Positions 34,515-56,539 of a stretch of DNA of 64,000 nucleotides are shown here, piece by piece. The stretch is taken from positions 58,443-122,442 of IMG/VR virus record IMGVR_UViG_3300042309_001504. The stretch is one strand, 5' to 3'. Each line of letters begins with the position of its first letter. Within the stretch, counting starts at the first letter, position 1. This DNA comes from a virus. Below the pieces are notes generated by a model. It was not told the origin of the DNA. It saw only the letters and a list, made by a program, of their open reading frames with translations, and ran no database searches. Position numbers and translations under genes: made by a program.

Positions 34515-35508
34515 AAAAAAAACGGCCGTTTTATCAAGATACAAAGAAAAAAACAAAAGTTGGCATCATCTTTTACAACAATATGGTTATGAAACCATTG
34601 TTTTTAATAAATTTGATGGCGATAATTTATTGCCTAATGTTGGAAGAGAAGGCCATACATATTTATATTATATAGTAAACAATTATCATCATCTTCCTCA
34701 TGAAATACTATTTACTCAATATGATCCAAGAGATCACTTTAAAAATAACACTGTAACTAATAATGTTAAATATAATGTTAATATACAAGAATTTTTAAAT
34801 CAATTTTTATATAATTTTATATCTATAAGACCAATCGATTTTGATTCGATTGTAAGAGATAGAAATATCGATTGGATTCAATATTGTAAAACAATTTTTG
34901 AGTTATTTGATGATAAACAAATTAATCGTTTGTTATGTTGTGGGGCAAATCTCAATGGAGTATTTCGTGTTAGTAGAAGAGCAATTTTAAATAGACCACT
35001 ATCTTTTTATACTAGATGTTTAGAATTATTAAGCAACGAAGTTGATCCCGAGGCCGGATATTTTTTTGAAAGAATATGGAAGTTTATTTTTACATCCTAT
35101 GGTTGCAATAATAATAAATATATTTATTTTAATAATGAATATTTTTTATTTGGCACTGACTATGGATTAGATAATCATTGGCATCCAAATTCAAATCCAA
35201 TATCTAGTAATTTTTCTGGCAATATTATTTCTGATAGAAAATGGAAAGACAATGCATATGGACATATCTTTTTACATGAATCTGGACTAATCATGTCTAA
35301 TTATTTAAGCACCAATTTATATAGTAGCCCTCATGAGGCATATTGGAGTATAGATGATGATGATCGTCTTAGATTTTATAATTTATATGGTGGCATAACA
35401 TCTATTTTTGATTTAAAGGATATATCTTGGCCTTTGAAAGGTAATATGTATCAAGGAACTAAAAAAATAATAAATTTTCACTGGCTTAAAAAGAAAATGT
35501 TCATGTAA
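34501..35508 (+). CDS. DUF3431-family protein (glycan-related)
   Basis: A 335-residue protein. The family core NVGREGHTYLYYIVNNYHHLPHEILFTQYDP is split here by position as NVGREGHTYL and the downstream LPHEILFTQYDP; the front reads TAVLSRYKEKNKSWHHLL. Then FRVSRRAILNRPLSFY and GYFFERIWKFIF follow. It is a paralogue of the protein at 36604-37548, about the same length. DUF3431 is thought to be GT-like from its genomic company. The ATG at the chosen start overlaps the previous gene by 14 bp. Confidence 0.78.
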   Translation: MANGRKKTAVLSRYKEKNKSWHHLLQQYGYETIVFNKFDGDNLLPNVGREGHTYLYYIVNNYHHLPHEILFTQYDPRDHFKNNTVTNNVKYNVNIQEFLNQFLYNFISIRPIDFDSIVRDRNIDWIQYCKTIFELFDDKQINRLLCCGANLNGVFRVSRRAILNRPLSFYTRCLELLSNEVDPEAGYFFERIWKFIFTSYGCNNNKYIYFNNEYFLFGTDYGLDNHWHPNSNPISSNFSGNIISDRKWKDNAYGHIFLHESGLIMSNYLSTNLYSSPHEAYWSIDDDDRLRFYNLYGGITSIFDLKDISWPLKGNMYQGTKKIINFHWLKKKMFM

Positions 35509-36592
35509 ATATTTTTTCAATTTTATTTAGTGCGGAACCTATTACTTGATGCATATCATAATACCTATATTCTGCTAATCTACCACCAAAAATATATTTA
35601 GTATTTTGACTACTTAATTTATAATATTTATCGTATATTACATTATTTTGTTGAGTATTAATTGGATAGTATGGAATTTTGTTATGATTCCATTCATCTG
35701 GATATTCTTTTGTTATTATCGTTTGATCCTGATTACCAAATTCAAAATGTTTATGTTCTATGATTCTAGTATATGGAATATTAATATCGGTATAATTAAT
35801 AAGAGCATTACCTTGATAATCTTTAATATCTAGTACTTCATGTTCAAATTTTAATGTTCTATAGTTAAGAATACCATGATAGTAATCATAAAACTCGTCT
35901 ATTTTACCAGTATAAACTATATATTTTGCTTTATTGTCCCAATAATCCCTATTATCGAAATAATCCACACCAAGTTCAATATCTGCTCCGTTTAACATAT
36001 TTTGAATCATGATTGTATAACCATTAACTGGTATTCCTTGATATTTATCATTAAAATAATTATCATCAAATGTTAATCTTATAGGTAGTCTTTTAATAAT
36101 ATCAGAAGGTAATTCTTTTGGATGTAATTTCCATTGTTTAGTCGTATATCCTTTAATAAAAATGTTATATATTTCTTCACCAACTTGAGATAGTATCCAT
36201 TCTTCTAAATTTTTTGGATTATCATTTACAATTCTTTTGTGTTTTAATATATCTTCTGCCTCTATAGGATCTTTAACTCCCCACAATTGATATAATGTAA
36301 ATAAATTAATAGGAAAAGAAAATAATTTATTTTTATAATTAACTTTTGGTCTATTCACATAATGATTAAATTCTGTAAATTGATTGACATAATCCCAGAT
36401 TTTTTTACTATTAGTATGAAATATATGTGGTCCATAAACATGAATATTGATATCATTTCTTTTTTCAGTATAGCAGTTACCACCGATATGATTTCTTTTA
36501 TCAATAATCAATACTTTTTTATTTCTTTTTATACATTCATGTGCAAATACAGAACTATATATTCCACAACCAACCATTAAATAATCATACAT
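35501..36592 (-). CDS. glf: UDP-galactopyranose mutase
   Basis: A 363-residue flavoprotein. YLMVGCGIYSSVFAHECI is the FAD-binding GxGxxx loop, IIDKRNHIGGNCYTEKR is the next conserved segment, and HVYGPHIFHTNSKKIWDYV is highly characteristic of UGM. KGYTTKQWKLHPKELP and the C-terminal GGRLAEYRYYDMHQVIGSAL fit too. It makes UDP-galactofuranose from UDP-galactopyranose, a donor for surface glycans. It is the one minus-strand gene inside the plus-strand cassette; its end overlaps the convergent gene by 8 bp. Confidence 0.93.
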   Translation of the reverse strand: MYDYLMVGCGIYSSVFAHECIKRNKKVLIIDKRNHIGGNCYTEKRNDINIHVYGPHIFHTNSKKIWDYVNQFTEFNHYVNRPKVNYKNKLFSFPINLFTLYQLWGVKDPIEAEDILKHKRIVNDNPKNLEEWILSQVGEEIYNIFIKGYTTKQWKLHPKELPSDIIKRLPIRLTFDDNYFNDKYQGIPVNGYTIMIQNMLNGADIELGVDYFDNRDYWDNKAKYIVYTGKIDEFYDYYHGILNYRTLKFEHEVLDIKDYQGNALINYTDINIPYTRIIEHKHFEFGNQDQTIITKEYPDEWNHNKIPYYPINTQQNNVIYDKYYKLSSQNTKYIFGGRLAEYRYYDMHQVIGSALNKIEKIFT

Positions 36593-50015: not shown

Positions 50016-51323
50016 TTATATTGTTCGAGACAATCCATGTAAAACTTTAAAAGTTGGAAAACGCAAACTCAAACCACCATCTTGGTTCTTGCTTTCTTCA
50101 AAATACTGTACAGTTATAACTTTACCAAGAATTTTGTTAGGATTCTTGTAAAAATCTTGTCTTTGTTCAATACTAAAACCAGATCCTACACGAACATTGT
50201 AACCCTTATGTTTAATAGTAACACAACTAAGCATATTTTCTTCAGTTTCCTTACTATCTTTTACATATCGAAATGGTCCCATTTCTACATCTACCACTTC
50301 GTATTCATCGTCAAAAAAACTTTTAAACTTGAGAAGGTCTTTGCTTCGCTTGCCTTTATATGGTTCATCAGCACGAAGCATTAAACCCTCCCAACCATAT
50401 TCTTTTGCTTTTTCTATCCATTCAGCAAAATGCTCATCATCCGCAATAAATTCTTGATCCAGAACAGAGAGACATGGACATTCATTGTCTCTCATTTGAT
50501 AACATAAGCTTTTATAGCGATAAGAGTATGTATTGCTGGGATTTCCCTTCTTACTATAGAATTCATCATGACTAATCATATCAAAAATCTTATACGAAGG
50601 ATTTGAAATAGTATGATCCTTCTTTTTAAGTTGCTTCATAATTCCTTGAAAATCTTCATTACCATTATCATCAACAAGACACAACTCTCCATCAAAAACT
50701 ACATTAGTAATACCCAAAGCCTTAATCCCACCAGCAACAACACCAAGAGTATCAAATTCTTTTCCTGTACGGGAATAGAAAGTAGTGTCGCCATTACTAT
50801 CAACAATAGCGATACATCTAGCCCCGTCAATTTTGCGACTAACATACCATCCATCCTTCCAATCTACAATATTTGGATCATATTTATCTGCCAAAGCAAC
50901 ACTAAACTCTGGAATATGGTCAGGAATAGCCTTATTAATAATCTTATCACCAGCACGGGTTTTCAAATCTTTATCAATGATACAATGAATGAGTTCATCA
51001 AAATATGGATAACTATCAATAAAGGTATTTACTGCACCAATAGCATCGTGACCAGTAATCTTACGACTCTTTAGATCATCAAGCAAAACGAAGAAATTCT
51101 TATATTCTTTTCCGCGAAGTTTAGATTTCTTCTTGAGATTATCACTTGTGACATTATACTGCCAAAGAGGATGATAGGTGTAAAGAAGAATCTTCTTGGC
51201 AAAATTTGCAGCCTCAGAACTATGATTACAATAGTCCTCAATAATACCCACCTTATCAATAGTACTACTTGTGGCCCTAAGATCACGAACCATTCCCAAA
51301 ACATAATTAAAATCGTGAGTCAT
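50016..51323 (-). CDS. lig: ATP-dependent DNA ligase
   Basis: A 435-residue ligase. The nucleotidyl-lysine motif is SRKIDGARC (Lys164), followed by VVFDGELCLVDD (motif III region), WEGLMLRADEPYKG (motif IV) and LLKFKSFFDDEYEVVDV (motif V), then an OB-fold with VRVGSGFSIEQRQDFY. An N-terminal ~130-residue DNA-binding domain is present, as in larger phage ligases. A strong promoter stands upstream, and AGGAG supports the start. Confidence 0.93.
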   Translation of the reverse strand: MTHDFNYVLGMVRDLRATSSTIDKVGIIEDYCNHSSEAANFAKKILLYTYHPLWQYNVTSDNLKKKSKLRGKEYKNFFVLLDDLKSRKITGHDAIGAVNTFIDSYPYFDELIHCIIDKDLKTRAGDKIINKAIPDHIPEFSVALADKYDPNIVDWKDGWYVSRKIDGARCIAIVDSNGDTTFYSRTGKEFDTLGVVAGGIKALGITNVVFDGELCLVDDNGNEDFQGIMKQLKKKDHTISNPSYKIFDMISHDEFYSKKGNPSNTYSYRYKSLCYQMRDNECPCLSVLDQEFIADDEHFAEWIEKAKEYGWEGLMLRADEPYKGKRSKDLLKFKSFFDDEYEVVDVEMGPFRYVKDSKETEENMLSCVTIKHKGYNVRVGSGFSIEQRQDFYKNPNKILGKVITVQYFEESKNQDGGLSLRFPTFKVLHGLSRTI

Positions 51324-52376: not shown

Positions 52377-52751
52377 CTATTCCATTTTTTTATTAATTGC
52401 ATCTTGTTTTCTTCTATTTTTAGACATTATCAAATAGTTGGCAGCCTTAATAATACCTTCTAAGTTATCTCCTAGTTTTCCTATCCCGGTATTACACCTA
52501 TCGCATGTCCAGCCCCTAAAACTATGATCATCATGATCGTGGTCTAATCTCCATTCCGATGGAATCTTACCACAACATTCGCAATGTAATGGCTTTGGCG
52601 GTGCTAATTTATGTAATTTATGTCTAATCTTAGCGTGTTTTTTAACACAAGATCGACATCTCTTATCTAGATTATCTTTAAAATGACAATGCTTAGGAAA
52701 AGATTTTCTATTTTTCCTTTTGCCACAATATGTGCAAATTTTTCTAAGCAT
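52377..52751 (-). CDS. recombination endonuclease VII-like protein
   Basis: A 124-residue His-Me finger nuclease. Zinc cysteines CTYCGKRKNRKSF and CRSCVKKH lead to LHCECCGKIPSEWRLDHDHDDH, and the conserved FRGWTCDRCNTGIGKLGDN closes the site. This is T4 gp49/endo VII, which cuts Holliday junctions and branched DNA before packaging. The DHDHDD run is the metal site. It pairs functionally with RuvB and UvsX here. Confidence 0.9.
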   Translation of the reverse strand: MLRKICTYCGKRKNRKSFPKHCHFKDNLDKRCRSCVKKHAKIRHKLHKLAPPKPLHCECCGKIPSEWRLDHDHDDHSFRGWTCDRCNTGIGKLGDNLEGIIKAANYLIMSKNRRKQDAINKKME

Positions 52752-53983
52752 TATACTAATTCTCTAATAATTTTACCATTATTAGCAATTTTTATTGGTC
52801 GTCCGTTCTTTGAAGTAAATGTGGTTTCCAAAGATATATCTAAACTTTTTAATATTGTTGCCATTAAATCTTCGGATGAATACGGTTCTGTGATAATCTT
52901 TTTTCCATCCTCATCTGTTTCTCCTACTATTATTCCTTTTGTTAATTTACCTCCACCAACAACAGCACTCCAACTTCTTGCCCAATGATCTCTGCCAGCA
53001 TTTTTATTAATATCTGGAGTTCTACCAAACTCTCCCATCCATATTATGGATGTAGTATCTAATAGACCTCTAGTATCTAGATCCTCTATTAAGGCACTCA
53101 TGCTTGTATCCATTTGAGATAATTTTTCTGGTAGAGTTTTGAAAATATCCATATGATTATCCCATCCACCAAAATCAACTTCAATAAATGGAACCCCTAT
53201 TTCGGCTAATCTTCTAGCCATCAAGCATCCTCTACCAAATGAAGTATTACCATATCGTTCACGAATATTTTGTGGTTCTTTATTTATATTAAAGACTTGA
53301 GTATGTGGACCAAACATTAAATCAACAGTTTTATTTAGCATTTTAGCATGATCGCCTGCTAATTCTCCACGTTTTTCCTGAATGAATTTATTCTCTACTA
53401 CAGATAGAAACTCTAATCTTTTTTGTATGGTTTGATAGTCTGCAACTGATTGTAAATTTCTAATCGTTCCATTGTAATCAACAACCAGTGGTGAATATGT
53501 AGCACCTAAAAAGCCGGGACCAATACTTGCTCCACCTATACTAATAAAAGGAGGTATTCCTATCTGATTAGTAGTATCCTTTAATAGTTCATGAGATATA
53601 ACAGATCCATAACTTGGATAATCTATGTTTGGATTTGGCACAAATCCAGTGTGCATATAATATCTACCTCTACCATGATCTGCTTCTCTAGTACTCATAC
53701 TACGAATAATACTAAGATTATTCATTTGTTTAGACAACAATGGTAGATGTTCACATATTTGTATTCCATCAGCATTAGTATTGATTGGCTTAAATGGTCC
53801 ACCAGTACTACTATTTGGTTTTAAATCCCAAATATCTATTGTGCTAGGTCCACCACTCATCCACAATAGTATTGTGCTTTTATTTTCTTTTTTAATTTTT
53901 TGTGCATTTGCTAATATAGCACTCTGTAAAAATAAAGATGATGGTACACTTACTGCATGACGTATAAAATGTCTTCTATTCAT
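52751..53983 (-). CDS. DUF1501 protein (planctomycete-type)
   Basis: A 410-residue protein with a twin-arginine-style N-terminus (MNRRHFIRHAVSVPSSLFLQ). The DUF1501 core is clear: STILLWMSGGPSTIDIWDLK, HLPLLSKQM, MSTREADHGRGRYYMHTGF, YPSYGSVISHEL and GVPFIEVDFGGWDNHMDIF, then IIWMGEFGRTPDINKNAGRDHW. The family is related to sulfatases/alkaline phosphatases and is hugely expanded in Planctomycetes. In a phage it is highly unusual. It follows the tmRNA gene without its own visible promoter. Confidence 0.92.
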   Translation of the reverse strand: MNRRHFIRHAVSVPSSLFLQSAILANAQKIKKENKSTILLWMSGGPSTIDIWDLKPNSSTGGPFKPINTNADGIQICEHLPLLSKQMNNLSIIRSMSTREADHGRGRYYMHTGFVPNPNIDYPSYGSVISHELLKDTTNQIGIPPFISIGGASIGPGFLGATYSPLVVDYNGTIRNLQSVADYQTIQKRLEFLSVVENKFIQEKRGELAGDHAKMLNKTVDLMFGPHTQVFNINKEPQNIRERYGNTSFGRGCLMARRLAEIGVPFIEVDFGGWDNHMDIFKTLPEKLSQMDTSMSALIEDLDTRGLLDTTSIIWMGEFGRTPDINKNAGRDHWARSWSAVVGGGKLTKGIIVGETDEDGKKIITEPYSSEDLMATILKSLDISLETTFTSKNGRPIKIANNGKIIRELV

Positions 53984-54001: not shown

Positions 54002-54351
54002 TGGACATGGCGGGAATCGAACCCGCGTCCTAGCATTACTTTATTATACCTTCTACAAGTTTATTTTGTTCATAAATTTTCAGAAAGACTAAAGAACAAA
54101 CAACATTCATCTTTCCGTACCAACTAGTCTCAGGCTAGAACCCGTTGGCTATTCTAGCAGCCGAAGGATTTTACGACAGTTTTTTGGACGCTACCTTCAT
54201 CGCTTCCTAAAACTGTTGCCGCTTAATTAAGCAGCAAGGGCTAACTGATTTGTGCCAGTTAAAGCATTTAATCGACTTTTAAAGTGGCCTGTCGATCAAC
54301 CACTACTTGCTTATATAACTCCATAAATGTAGTCGAAACCTTTACATGCCC
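54002..54351 (-). ncRNA. ssrA: tmRNA (one-piece)
   Basis: A 350-nt RNA gene. The 5' end GGGCATG pairs with CATGTCC at the 3' end (one G-U), followed by discriminator A. The T-arm is GCGGG TTCGATT CCCGC, and the 5' AAGGTTTCGAC matches the tmRNA D-like arm. The tag frame is at 54227-54265, reading ALTGTNQLALAA then TAA; the LALAA end is a classic degradation signal. Pseudoknots are likely in the AT/GC-patterned middle. No CCA is encoded. Used with SmpB, it rescues stalled ribosomes. Confidence 0.95.
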
Positions 54352-54515
54352 GTAATTTTTAATGACTCACTTTCTTTATCTGGATAAACAAATATTATAA
54401 TGGGTTTTTTTCTACATGATTCCAACTCTATATTTCTTTTTATCACTAATATATTAAATCCAATAGATGCAATTAATAATCCAATCAAAATAACATTTAT
54501 TGGATGAATTTTCAT
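54342..54515 (-). CDS. small membrane protein overlapping the tmRNA 5' end
   Basis: A 57-residue ORF: MKIHPINVILIGLLIASIGF opens with a membrane helix, then a basic and acidic tail ending SLKITGM. The ATG overlaps the TGA of the SPOUT methyltransferase gene, and its last three codons and stop lie inside tmRNA (GGGCATG TAA). No SD is seen, so coupling is needed. It appears real from the clean overlap but is unproven. Confidence 0.55.
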   Translation of the reverse strand: MKIHPINVILIGLLIASIGFNILVIKRNIELESCRKKPIIIFVYPDKESESLKITGM

Positions 54516-55048: not shown

Positions 55049-55193
55049 TATTAATATAGTTTTCTATTAGTTTTTGACATTCTTCTAAACGAATATACAT
55101 TTCTTGACACTTTTTGCATATCTCGGAATCAACATACTCTTTTATAGAATCTAGTTCTTGTTTTAATTCAACAATTATCGAATAGTTATTCAT
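55026..55193 (-). CDS. small coiled-coil protein
   Basis: A 55-residue helical protein (MNNYSIIVELKQELDSIKEY) with two Cys in CKKCQEMYIRLEEC. The MNNYS start limits overlap with the upstream gene to 8 bp; a longer form begins in a hydrophobic stretch inside that gene. It overlaps the start of the SPOUT gene by 23 bp. The role is unknown. Confidence 0.55.
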   Translation of the reverse strand: MNNYSIIVELKQELDSIKEYVDSEICKKCQEMYIRLEECQKLIENYINNECNRQT

Positions 55194-55530
55194 ATTTGTT
55201 CTCGCTATTAGGAACAGAAAAAACCATACGATTTTCTTCGCTATCCCAAGCACAGTCTATTTGATTATCTGATGCTAATTTTGCTAGTCCAATACCAAAT
55301 ATCCAATTACAAATACTATCAAATGCAGACTCATGACCATCTTTATCTAGAATAAGATTATTCTCATCATCGTAGCCATTACAATTTTCTATAATTAGAC
55401 TTTTGGTTTCATTTAAGGAGATATAAGTATCCAAATTTTCATTGGAATAATTCTCATTAATATGACAAGCCGCCAGTTGTCTCATCTCATGGGCGTAACC
55501 ATCAAGATTATTAATAGTATAAACTTCCAT
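55186..55530 (-). CDS. hypothetical protein, family with 39583-39996
   Basis: A 114-residue protein beginning MEVYTINNLDGYAHEMRQLA. It ends with a helix and hairpin (GIGLAKLASDNQIDCAWDSE, then NRMVFSVPNSENKYE) that repeats the layout of the protein at 39583-39996. GGAG six nt before this ATG sets the start. The two copies have diverged strongly. No function is known. Confidence 0.65.
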   Translation of the reverse strand: MEVYTINNLDGYAHEMRQLAACHINENYSNENLDTYISLNETKSLIIENCNGYDDENNLILDKDGHESAFDSICNWIFGIGLAKLASDNQIDCAWDSEENRMVFSVPNSENKYE

Positions 55531-55548
55531 TTTATGCTCCAATTTAAA

Positions 55549-55824
55549 TTAATATATATATTTCTTTATGCTGTTAGATGATTTATTATCCAATATTTTA
55601 TCATTTAAATTATCTATAGTATTTTGTAAGGTGTACTGTCCTCTTGGTAACCAATTTGAATCGTTAATAAGAGCCGTAACAATCTGAGGAACATAATGAG
55701 AATGTGCCAGATAATATTCTTTTTCGCACTCTTTGTTTTGTTGTAAAATGCTCTCAATAGATTCTAAGCATTTAAGAATTTGATTTCTATAATCACACAA
55801 TTCTTGTATAGTATTTTGATTCAT
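55549..55824 (-). CDS. small helical hypothetical protein
   Basis: A 91-residue protein with two helices at the front (ELCDYRNQILKCLESIESIL) and a conserved-looking HSHYVPQIVTALINDSNWLP. It ends with a basic tail. It overlaps the zinc-ribbon gene by four bases. No family is recognised. Confidence 0.6.
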   Translation of the reverse strand: MNQNTIQELCDYRNQILKCLESIESILQQNKECEKEYYLAHSHYVPQIVTALINDSNWLPRGQYTLQNTIDNLNDKILDNKSSNSIKKYIY

Positions 55825-56225
55825 ACTTCTTCTTTCTTTTTAATTTTAAGTAGAGTATGTGGAGTTTTTCTTAAACCAGTATTTTTATCATGATAAGTTG
55901 GTCCCATATAAATGTGACAATAACCACCATCTTTTTCCGTACTCCATGCTAGGATACCCTTATCATCAACTCCCTGTACACTAAATCTTCCACGGTAGCC
56001 CATAGGAACATATTCACCGTCATTATTCATAAAGTATGGACCGCCATTAACCTTAATTAAATCGCCACGAACCAGTTGGTGCCAATCAAAATCTCGTATT
56101 ACTCTATTTTTTCTACCCTTGTTTTTGATTTTTAATACAAATGGAGTATTACACTTTGGGCAAATATACGCACGGGGACCAGTGCAAAAACCGCACGATG
56201 AGCATGACTTACAGCCTTTTGGCAT
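55821..56225 (-). CDS. zinc-ribbon protein
   Basis: A 134-residue protein. The front has a dense Cys cluster (MPKGCKSCSSCGFCTGPRAY, then CPKCNTPFVL), which should bind one or two zinc ions. A KOW/SH3-like strand domain follows (QLVRGDLIKVNGGPYFMNND). The MPKGC start is fixed by AGGAG and by a promoter that covers the longer frame. A DNA- or RNA-binding regulator is plausible. Confidence 0.75.
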   Translation of the reverse strand: MPKGCKSCSSCGFCTGPRAYICPKCNTPFVLKIKNKGRKNRVIRDFDWHQLVRGDLIKVNGGPYFMNNDGEYVPMGYRGRFSVQGVDDKGILAWSTEKDGGYCHIYMGPTYHDKNTGLRKTPHTLLKIKKKEEV

Positions 56226-56259
56226 AACAAATTCTCCTTTGGTTACCGAATCATCTTCA

Positions 56260-56287
56260 AGTATATCACACTTATCGGCTTTGTCAA
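56260..56287 (-). promoter_or_regulatory. sigma70-type promoter for the zinc-ribbon gene
   Basis: TTGACA (56282-56287) and TATACT (56260-56265) with a 16-nt spacer on the minus strand, 34 nt before the MPKGC start. It overlaps the end of the gene at 56291. Confidence 0.75.
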
Positions 56288-56290
56288 CCA

Positions 56291-56539
56291 CTAGCCTTTA
56301 GTTTTTTGTTTTGCGTTGTTTTGACTAGAGAAATCTATATATTTTCTATTATCTGTAGTAAATAAACTATAATGATCACTGTTTATGGTGAGTTCTAGTT
56401 CTTCGCACAATATTCGATAGTCGCTAAAACTTTTGTCTTTATTATAAACTCTGAATACAAAATCTTGAGCTTTAGTATTCCATATTAAAAAACCTTTTGT
56501 TCCACTAGCATTTTTTTCATTAATCATTTTATTTTCCAT
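56291..56539 (-). CDS. small hypothetical protein
   Basis: An 82-residue protein (MENKMINEKNASGTKGFLIW at the start), with strands TKAQDFVFRVYNKD and ELTINSDHYSLFTTDN. A second in-frame Met at residue 5 could be the start; neither has a strong SD. It may be coupled to the ORF that ends over its ATG. No family is recognised. Confidence 0.5.
   Translation of the reverse strand: MENKMINEKNASGTKGFLIWNTKAQDFVFRVYNKDKSFSDYRILCEELELTINSDHYSLFTTDNRKYIDFSSQNNAKQKTKG

Follow-up and report, generated by a model that had tools for sequence, protein, structure and literature searches.

A phage-encoded one-piece tmRNA and the small membrane protein gene in front of it in a large uncultured phage group

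INTRODUCTION

Does a tmRNA gene that lies among the genes of a virus serve that virus, or is it a stray piece of a host genome? The question is raised by the window analysed here, the final 64 kb of an IMG/VR virus record 122,442 bases long, which holds the only tmRNA of the record directly behind a small open reading frame that runs into it. For the bacterial tmRNA, charging with alanine, 5′ processing by RNase P and the ALAA degron are established (PMC3985003). Phage tmRNAs are known in huge phages (PMC7162821), and one survey counted tmRNA in 402 of 18,146 phage genomes (2.3%; PMC9004378). In a BLAST search, more than 100 phage records showed an end resembling its T arm and acceptor, and many of them have a tmRNA annotation there. 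A first reading made from the sequence alone had called tmRNA known in a few large phages, which understates these numbers. Since phage tmRNAs are already known, the presence of one is not in itself new. The analysis covered its structure, its distribution and its neighbours.

RESULTS

Identity, boundaries and tag of the tmRNA

ARAGORN (54351-54001) and Rfam RF00023 (54351-53999) both identified a complete one-piece tmRNA on the minus strand. The covariance-model check called for in the sequence-only reading thus bears out its claim of such an RNA. The RF00023 match scored 131.6 bits against a threshold of 47 bits (E 3e-51) and covered the full length of the model (positions 1-374 of 374). The 5′ G is at 54351 and the discriminator A at 54002, and CCA is absent from the encoded 3′ end (ACUA). 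The features of the locus are collected in Table 1.

ARAGORN and the Rfam alignment agree on GGC (54256), preceded by UUAACU, as the resume codon. The tag peptide is (A)GTNQLALAA, in which the leading Ala is the residue charged on the tmRNA. The tag proposed earlier, ALTGTNQLALAA, is three residues too long; its extra ALT comes from the codons ahead of the resume codon, and these are nearly constant among relatives while the tag varies. As in other members of RF00023, the tag is short, has a hydrophobic degron end and is followed by the stop UAA.

Table 1. Features of the tmRNA locus (positions in the 64-kb window)
Feature	Position	Strand	Evidence
One-piece tmRNA (ssrA)	54002..54351	-	ARAGORN, Rfam RF00023 131.6 bits, covariation (50 relatives)
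Tag reading frame GGC..GCU + UAA, peptide GTNQLALAA	54227..54256	-	ARAGORN coding part 96-125; UAACU directly before, conserved in all relatives
Acceptor 5′ strand GGGCAUG; pairs with 54003-54009 CAUGUCC; G3:U70	54345..54351	-	Rfam; G3:U70 in 85/85 distinct relatives
T arm GCGGG UUCGAUU CCCGC, canonical T loop	54010..54026	-	Rfam, written-out helices
Pseudoknot PK1, upstream of tag	54268..54304	-	Helices 4-5: pairs kept in 97-98% of cells, compensatory changes
Pseudoknot PK2	54163..54216	-	Helices 6-7, compensatory changes
Pseudoknot PK3	54120..54158	-	Helices 8-9, compensatory changes
Pseudoknot PK4	54066..54115	-	Helices 10-11, compensatory changes
ORF57, small single-TM protein	54342..54515	-	Family HMM; pooled pN/pS 0.28
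SpoU/SPOUT-family RNA 2′-O-methylase, 178 aa	54512..55048	-	PF00588 78.5 bits, E 7e-22
ORF118, conserved gene-block member	55186..55542	-	Upstream in 54/61 distinct tmRNA loci
Putative zinc-ribbon protein, conserved upstream block member	55821..56291	-	Weak PF14690 match below cut-off; synteny
DUF1501 protein, 410 aa, start 18 nt past tmRNA discriminator	52751..53983	-	PF07394 334.5 bits, E 1e-99
Endonuclease VII-type HNH nuclease, 124 aa	52377..52751	-	PF02945, phrog_2633, synteny
ATP-dependent DNA ligase	50016..51323	-	PF01068

Fold and covariation

The window RNA has the tRNA-like domain of RF00023 (7-bp acceptor, G3:U70 and T arm), pseudoknots around the tag frame and canonical D and T loops. 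Covariation was examined in 50 distinct tmRNAs over 12 helices with 78 pairs, namely the acceptor, the T stem, two connecting helices and both stems of the four pseudoknots. Over these pairs 96.0% of cells were paired, and compensatory changes on both sides occurred at 55 of the 78. The covariation score was 0.385; shuffles gave 0.150, with none of 500 reaching the observed value, and slid controls did not exceed 0.09. Because compensatory change keeps the pairing in 50 relatives, the fold is conserved beyond chance. The identity element G3:U70 was present in 50 of 50 tmRNAs of this set and in 85 of 85 distinct sequences, while other acceptor pairs vary. The count of 85 required seven acceptor pairs, not a G-U at position 3, and left out eight loci, mostly contig-end pieces, that did not fit this requirement.

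The D region and T loop of the tmRNA change jointly in related phages. GG is accompanied by UUCRAN(N) in all 69 cases, an AUAG D region with a GGCAGNN T loop in 7 of 7, and AUG-UAUCG with 6-nt UUCGCC/GUCGAA T loops in 7 of 7; equivalents of G19 and C56 are retained despite the change. ARAGORN overlooked the changed-loop tmRNAs (L005, L012, L015, L037, L038, L039, L097, L104, L113, L123, L130, L131, L144 and L160) wherever it was run on them; it misses a share of such tmRNAs because both loops have changed together. In another comparison, the tmRNA bodies of L004/L007 and L009 are near-identical and their T arms differ (AUGGG..CCCAU versus GGGGA..UCCCC), as if the T arm had been exchanged as a cassette. 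Homing by the adjacent endonuclease VII gene is a plausible cause of such swapping. However, this near-constant gene of the group may encode a T4 gp49-like resolvase, which counts against a homing role.

Relatives and the phage group

A scan with the tag returned 48 viral loci, most of which ARAGORN called as tmRNA. Rfam added eight that ARAGORN had missed, and the other loci could be read as tmRNAs whose loops had changed or as fragments at contig ends. When tag residues were left free, the pattern matched at least 119 stretches; among the matches listed, the tags were GTNQ, GETQ, GVTQ, GNNQ, GTTQ, GNTQ, GSHQ, GKTQ and GVNQ, each followed by LALAA, with a few other types. In most relatives the variation is confined to residues 2-3 of the tag and QLALAA is kept. 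The exact tag GTNQLALAA had no match in 84,980 species genomes (contigs of at least 3 kb). A relaxed tag pattern found only -FALAA tags, e.g. GNEEFALAA, in 296 sampled genomes from the phylum of a Bacteroidetes anchor, and nothing in 115 genomes from the phylum of a Verrucomicrobia anchor; the anchors came from chance matches (L082-L091) used solely for phylum sampling. On these results an assignment of host origin from the tag was rejected.

In order to sample relatives without bias towards tmRNA, we used the ATP-dependent DNA ligase. Among 22 ligase-selected loci with at least 6 kb upstream, some of them near-duplicates, 20 had a tmRNA, which makes it a regular part of the group. It may not be indispensable, since L255 and L260 have no tmRNA near the ligase. 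The nearest ligases in cultured phages are only ∼30-35% identical, so that collection of cultured phages contains no close member of the group. The record carries genes for RIIA, RIIB, ribonucleotide reductase, clamp loader, DNA polymerase, primase, a DnaB-type helicase and tail fibre; a search of it with PF07068 (T4 major capsid) gave no match, with the control silent as well. The tmRNA lies among phage genes and not at a host junction, and its synteny is conserved in ∼100 viral loci, which supports the initial view that it is phage-encoded. It is new that this record falls in a large group of uncultured phages that nearly all have a tmRNA. No SmpB gene was found in the 122-kb record or in 13 related records, all possibly incomplete, so the SmpB of the host must be compatible.

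Gene neighbourhood

As first read, the tmRNA lies between a SPOUT methylase gene and a DUF1501 gene (PF00588 upstream, PF07394 downstream). The methylase is nearest to the RlmB type, with 58.4 bits against an NCBIfam cut-off of 160. It falls under all NCBIfam cut-offs, including those for RlmB, TrmH and TrmL, and only membership of the SpoU superfamily can be claimed. A single-sequence scan found no close relatives of it. We considered whether it might be a methylase of the tmRNA D loop and rejected this, as no correlation with D-loop type was visible by eye (L005, L038 and L039 with the SPOUT gene, L015 without). DUF1501 is a family known mainly from cellular genomes. The gene occurs also in relatives L051-L069, and 50,697 phage records gave no match to it.

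In dereplicated loci the membrane protein was found in 52 of 73, endonuclease VII in 54 of 68, ORF118 in 54 of 61, the SPOUT gene in 27 of 61 (loci with enough upstream sequence) and DUF1501 in 4 of 40. The suggestion that the SPOUT gene marks a dedicated RNA module holds as far as the link recurs. The most constant partners of the tmRNA are, however, the membrane ORF, its most regular immediate neighbour, and endonuclease VII, in relatives usually among the first genes after the tmRNA. In L030, L093, L110, L145 and L161 the endonuclease VII start codon is just 2 nt past the tmRNA discriminator, a spacing at which 3′ processing of the tmRNA would leave the nuclease message leaderless.

Relatives (L003, L006, L008, L011, L013 and others) often have a tRNA-Ile with anticodon TAT (reading AUA) some hundreds of bases upstream of their tmRNA. 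The only tRNA of the window is a tRNA-Leu(CAA) at 45675-45591. The window also encodes glycosyltransferases and a UDP-galactopyranose mutase (35501-36592), the latter sharing ∼50-55% identity with copies in phages and prophages.

On the tmRNA strand, the stretch from the SPOUT stop to the tmRNA showed no promoter-like site, nor did the region yield a terminator-like site. The start of ORF57 overlaps the SPOUT stop (ATGA) and its end enters the tmRNA. A polycistronic precursor is likely for these reasons, and the 5′ end of the tmRNA is probably processed from an mRNA; the earlier wording, that it must be, goes too far.

A family of small membrane proteins in front of the tmRNA

ORF57 contains a single hydrophobic segment of 19 aa with a mean KD of 2.45. 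Forty-nine homologous ORFs that end near a tmRNA 5′ end share a short basic N terminus, one hydrophobic helix with the motif G-L-x-x-x-S-x-G-F-N and a charged tail. A family HMM matched 137 of 11,977 ORFs, and 114 of the 137 lie at most 60 nt from a tmRNA 5′ end. The scanned loci were mostly chosen by tmRNA, which biases this count, and each spans several kilobases of other genes. Nearly all other matches are tandem copies 190-450 nt further upstream, and no strong match occurred elsewhere. Such a second member, often of a different subtype from the one adjoining the tmRNA, is found in L025, L044, L098, L101, L104, L130, L135, L145, L148, L208, L233 and others.

The pooled pN/pS of the family is 0.28 over 14 pairs. 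This indicates purifying selection and thus a protein gene. It is highly improbable that ORF57 is a chance reading upstream of the tmRNA: it is short and AT-rich, the window gene has no Pfam or NCBIfam match, and PHROGs gave no convincing match for it or four relatives, yet the 49 seeds share a TM motif and this pN/pS. The ORF57 proteins are an unnamed single-TM family found almost exclusively just upstream of these tmRNAs. A literature search, with subscription journals mostly outside its coverage, found no account of a small membrane protein linked to tmRNA; as the coverage was partial, this is weak evidence that the pair is novel.

Geometry of the overlap

The sequence-only reading was right that a 57-residue membrane ORF runs into the tmRNA, with an overlap of 10 nt. 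Its final codons GGC ATG are tmRNA nt 2-7. The stop, which had been placed inside the acceptor stem, is UAA at nt 8-10, just behind the acceptor strand. An upstream ORF stops within -7 to +11 of the tmRNA 5′ end in 60 of 74 distinct loci, compared with 19 of 61 for tRNA genes of the same loci (Fisher 4e-9; with related sequences, this P value is only a guide). Of the 49 family genes, 23 stop inside the tmRNA (+1, +10, +29, +39) and 26 stop outside it.

This geometry suggests that termination on ORF57 is coupled to the tmRNA 5′ end. Alternatively, the overlap is mere genome compaction with no regulatory meaning, a reading whose truth and falsity we consider equally probable. Genes overlap generally in phages, other upstream genes likewise stop at +10 (the SPOUT gene in L146, a different gene in L057), and fewer than half of the family genes stop inside the tmRNA. 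Compaction explains less well why tRNA genes of the same phages show the close stop less often, and why the membrane family is almost confined to the site upstream of tmRNA.

Where the upstream stop lies inside the tmRNA, maturation by RNase P could make the upstream message nonstop. If termination is coupled in this way, tmRNA maturation and membrane-protein expression might even be mutually exclusive on each transcript: the RNase P cut would remove the stop at nt 8-10, the tmRNA would rescue and tag the nonstop message, and stable membrane protein would accumulate only when trans-translation is short. We regard this scheme as improbable. It recalls arfA, whose nonstop message is held down by tmRNA (PMC10107115), in that the message of a small ORF, here in part of the ORF57 family, may lose its stop by RNA processing. 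In contrast, ArfA is a rescue factor whose message is cut by RNase III, whereas ORF57 is a membrane protein adjoining the tmRNA and the cut would be made by RNase P. Since only 23 of 49 genes have the nonstop geometry, it cannot be the general function of the family. Loss of the stop, which an ArfA-like system would show in all members, is possible for the window gene. As a general function, competition between the terminating ribosome and acceptor folding could apply.

DISCUSSION

The window tmRNA shares with the bacterial one-piece tmRNA (ssrA, RF00023) its helices, four pseudoknots, G3:U70, the UAACU-like stretch before the resume codon and the ALAA end. It differs in lying in a phage operon, in not encoding CCA, in a tag absent from 84,980 species genomes and in having no SmpB gene alongside. 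The Melnitz-type tmRNA of an OM43 phage (PMC9004378) is likewise a complete tmRNA of an aquatic phage, in an operon and without integrase context. That RNA, however, is a permuted two-piece form with a glutamine riboswitch, whereas the window tmRNA is one-piece, near-universal in its group and preceded by the membrane protein. The tmRNAs of Streptomyces phages (e.g. Elmer, tag ANSNVASAYALAA) and mycobacteriophages are also one-piece, and their BLAST likeness is restricted to the T arm and acceptor. Elmer has another tag, and upstream of its tmRNA are a hypothetical protein, a DnaQ-like gene and tRNAs; its annotation names no membrane protein directly upstream.

We conclude that this is very probably a functional phage-encoded tmRNA for host-dependent trans-translation, a long-kept component of the group and not a recent capture from a host. 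Its expression, processing, charging and use in tagging we infer as follows. It would form part of the transcript of a tight operon that runs from SPOUT through the small membrane protein, tmRNA, DUF1501 and endonuclease VII genes and further genes to the ligase. RNase P together with 3′ processing by the host would free it, and CCA would be added. Host AlaRS would charge it with alanine via G3:U70. During infection it would then act with host SmpB and EF-Tu where truncated mRNAs have stalled ribosomes, rescuing these and adding the ALAA-type degradation tag (A)GTNQLALAA.

A working tmRNA might instead act mainly as a decoy or competitor, which binds host SmpB or stalled ribosomes, swaps the host tag for a phage tag and so has nascent chains steered differently by host proteases. 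The exact tag is indeed absent from the species genomes searched, no phage SmpB was found, and a CDS-less form of the tmRNA of phage DS6A inhibits endogenous tmRNA in E. coli (PMC11915505). We nevertheless think this unlikely, because the tag keeps an ordinary ALAA end and an intact, conserved frame, as it should if tagging is what counts. Integration at ssrA is common. Such capture has been proposed for phage ssrA (PMC9004378), but that this tmRNA is a decaying passenger, acquired by chance e.g. through imprecise excision from an ssrA attachment site, is hardly credible: the intact structure and strong covariation already contradict it, as do its presence in 20 of 22 ligase-selected loci, the conserved synteny and a tag absent from the searched species genomes.

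What is new, on the reading as a functional phage tmRNA, is its near-universal presence in the group, the tag absent from searched genomes, the covariation-supported fold and the unnamed single-TM partner family. Phage tmRNAs are usually treated as isolated curiosities. This one occurs almost throughout a large uncultured group, in which ARAGORN alone would give an incomplete count of them. The recurrence of the tmRNA and membrane gene throughout this group makes the pair look like a kept working unit and not a stray host gene. Were the two products mutually exclusive, the phage would possess a self-contained device that senses stalled ribosomes and acts on a membrane protein, perhaps to time lysis. 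As a defined unit of two genes, the pair lends itself to asking why phages maintain a ribosome-rescue RNA of their own, a question to which the answers so far are conjecture.
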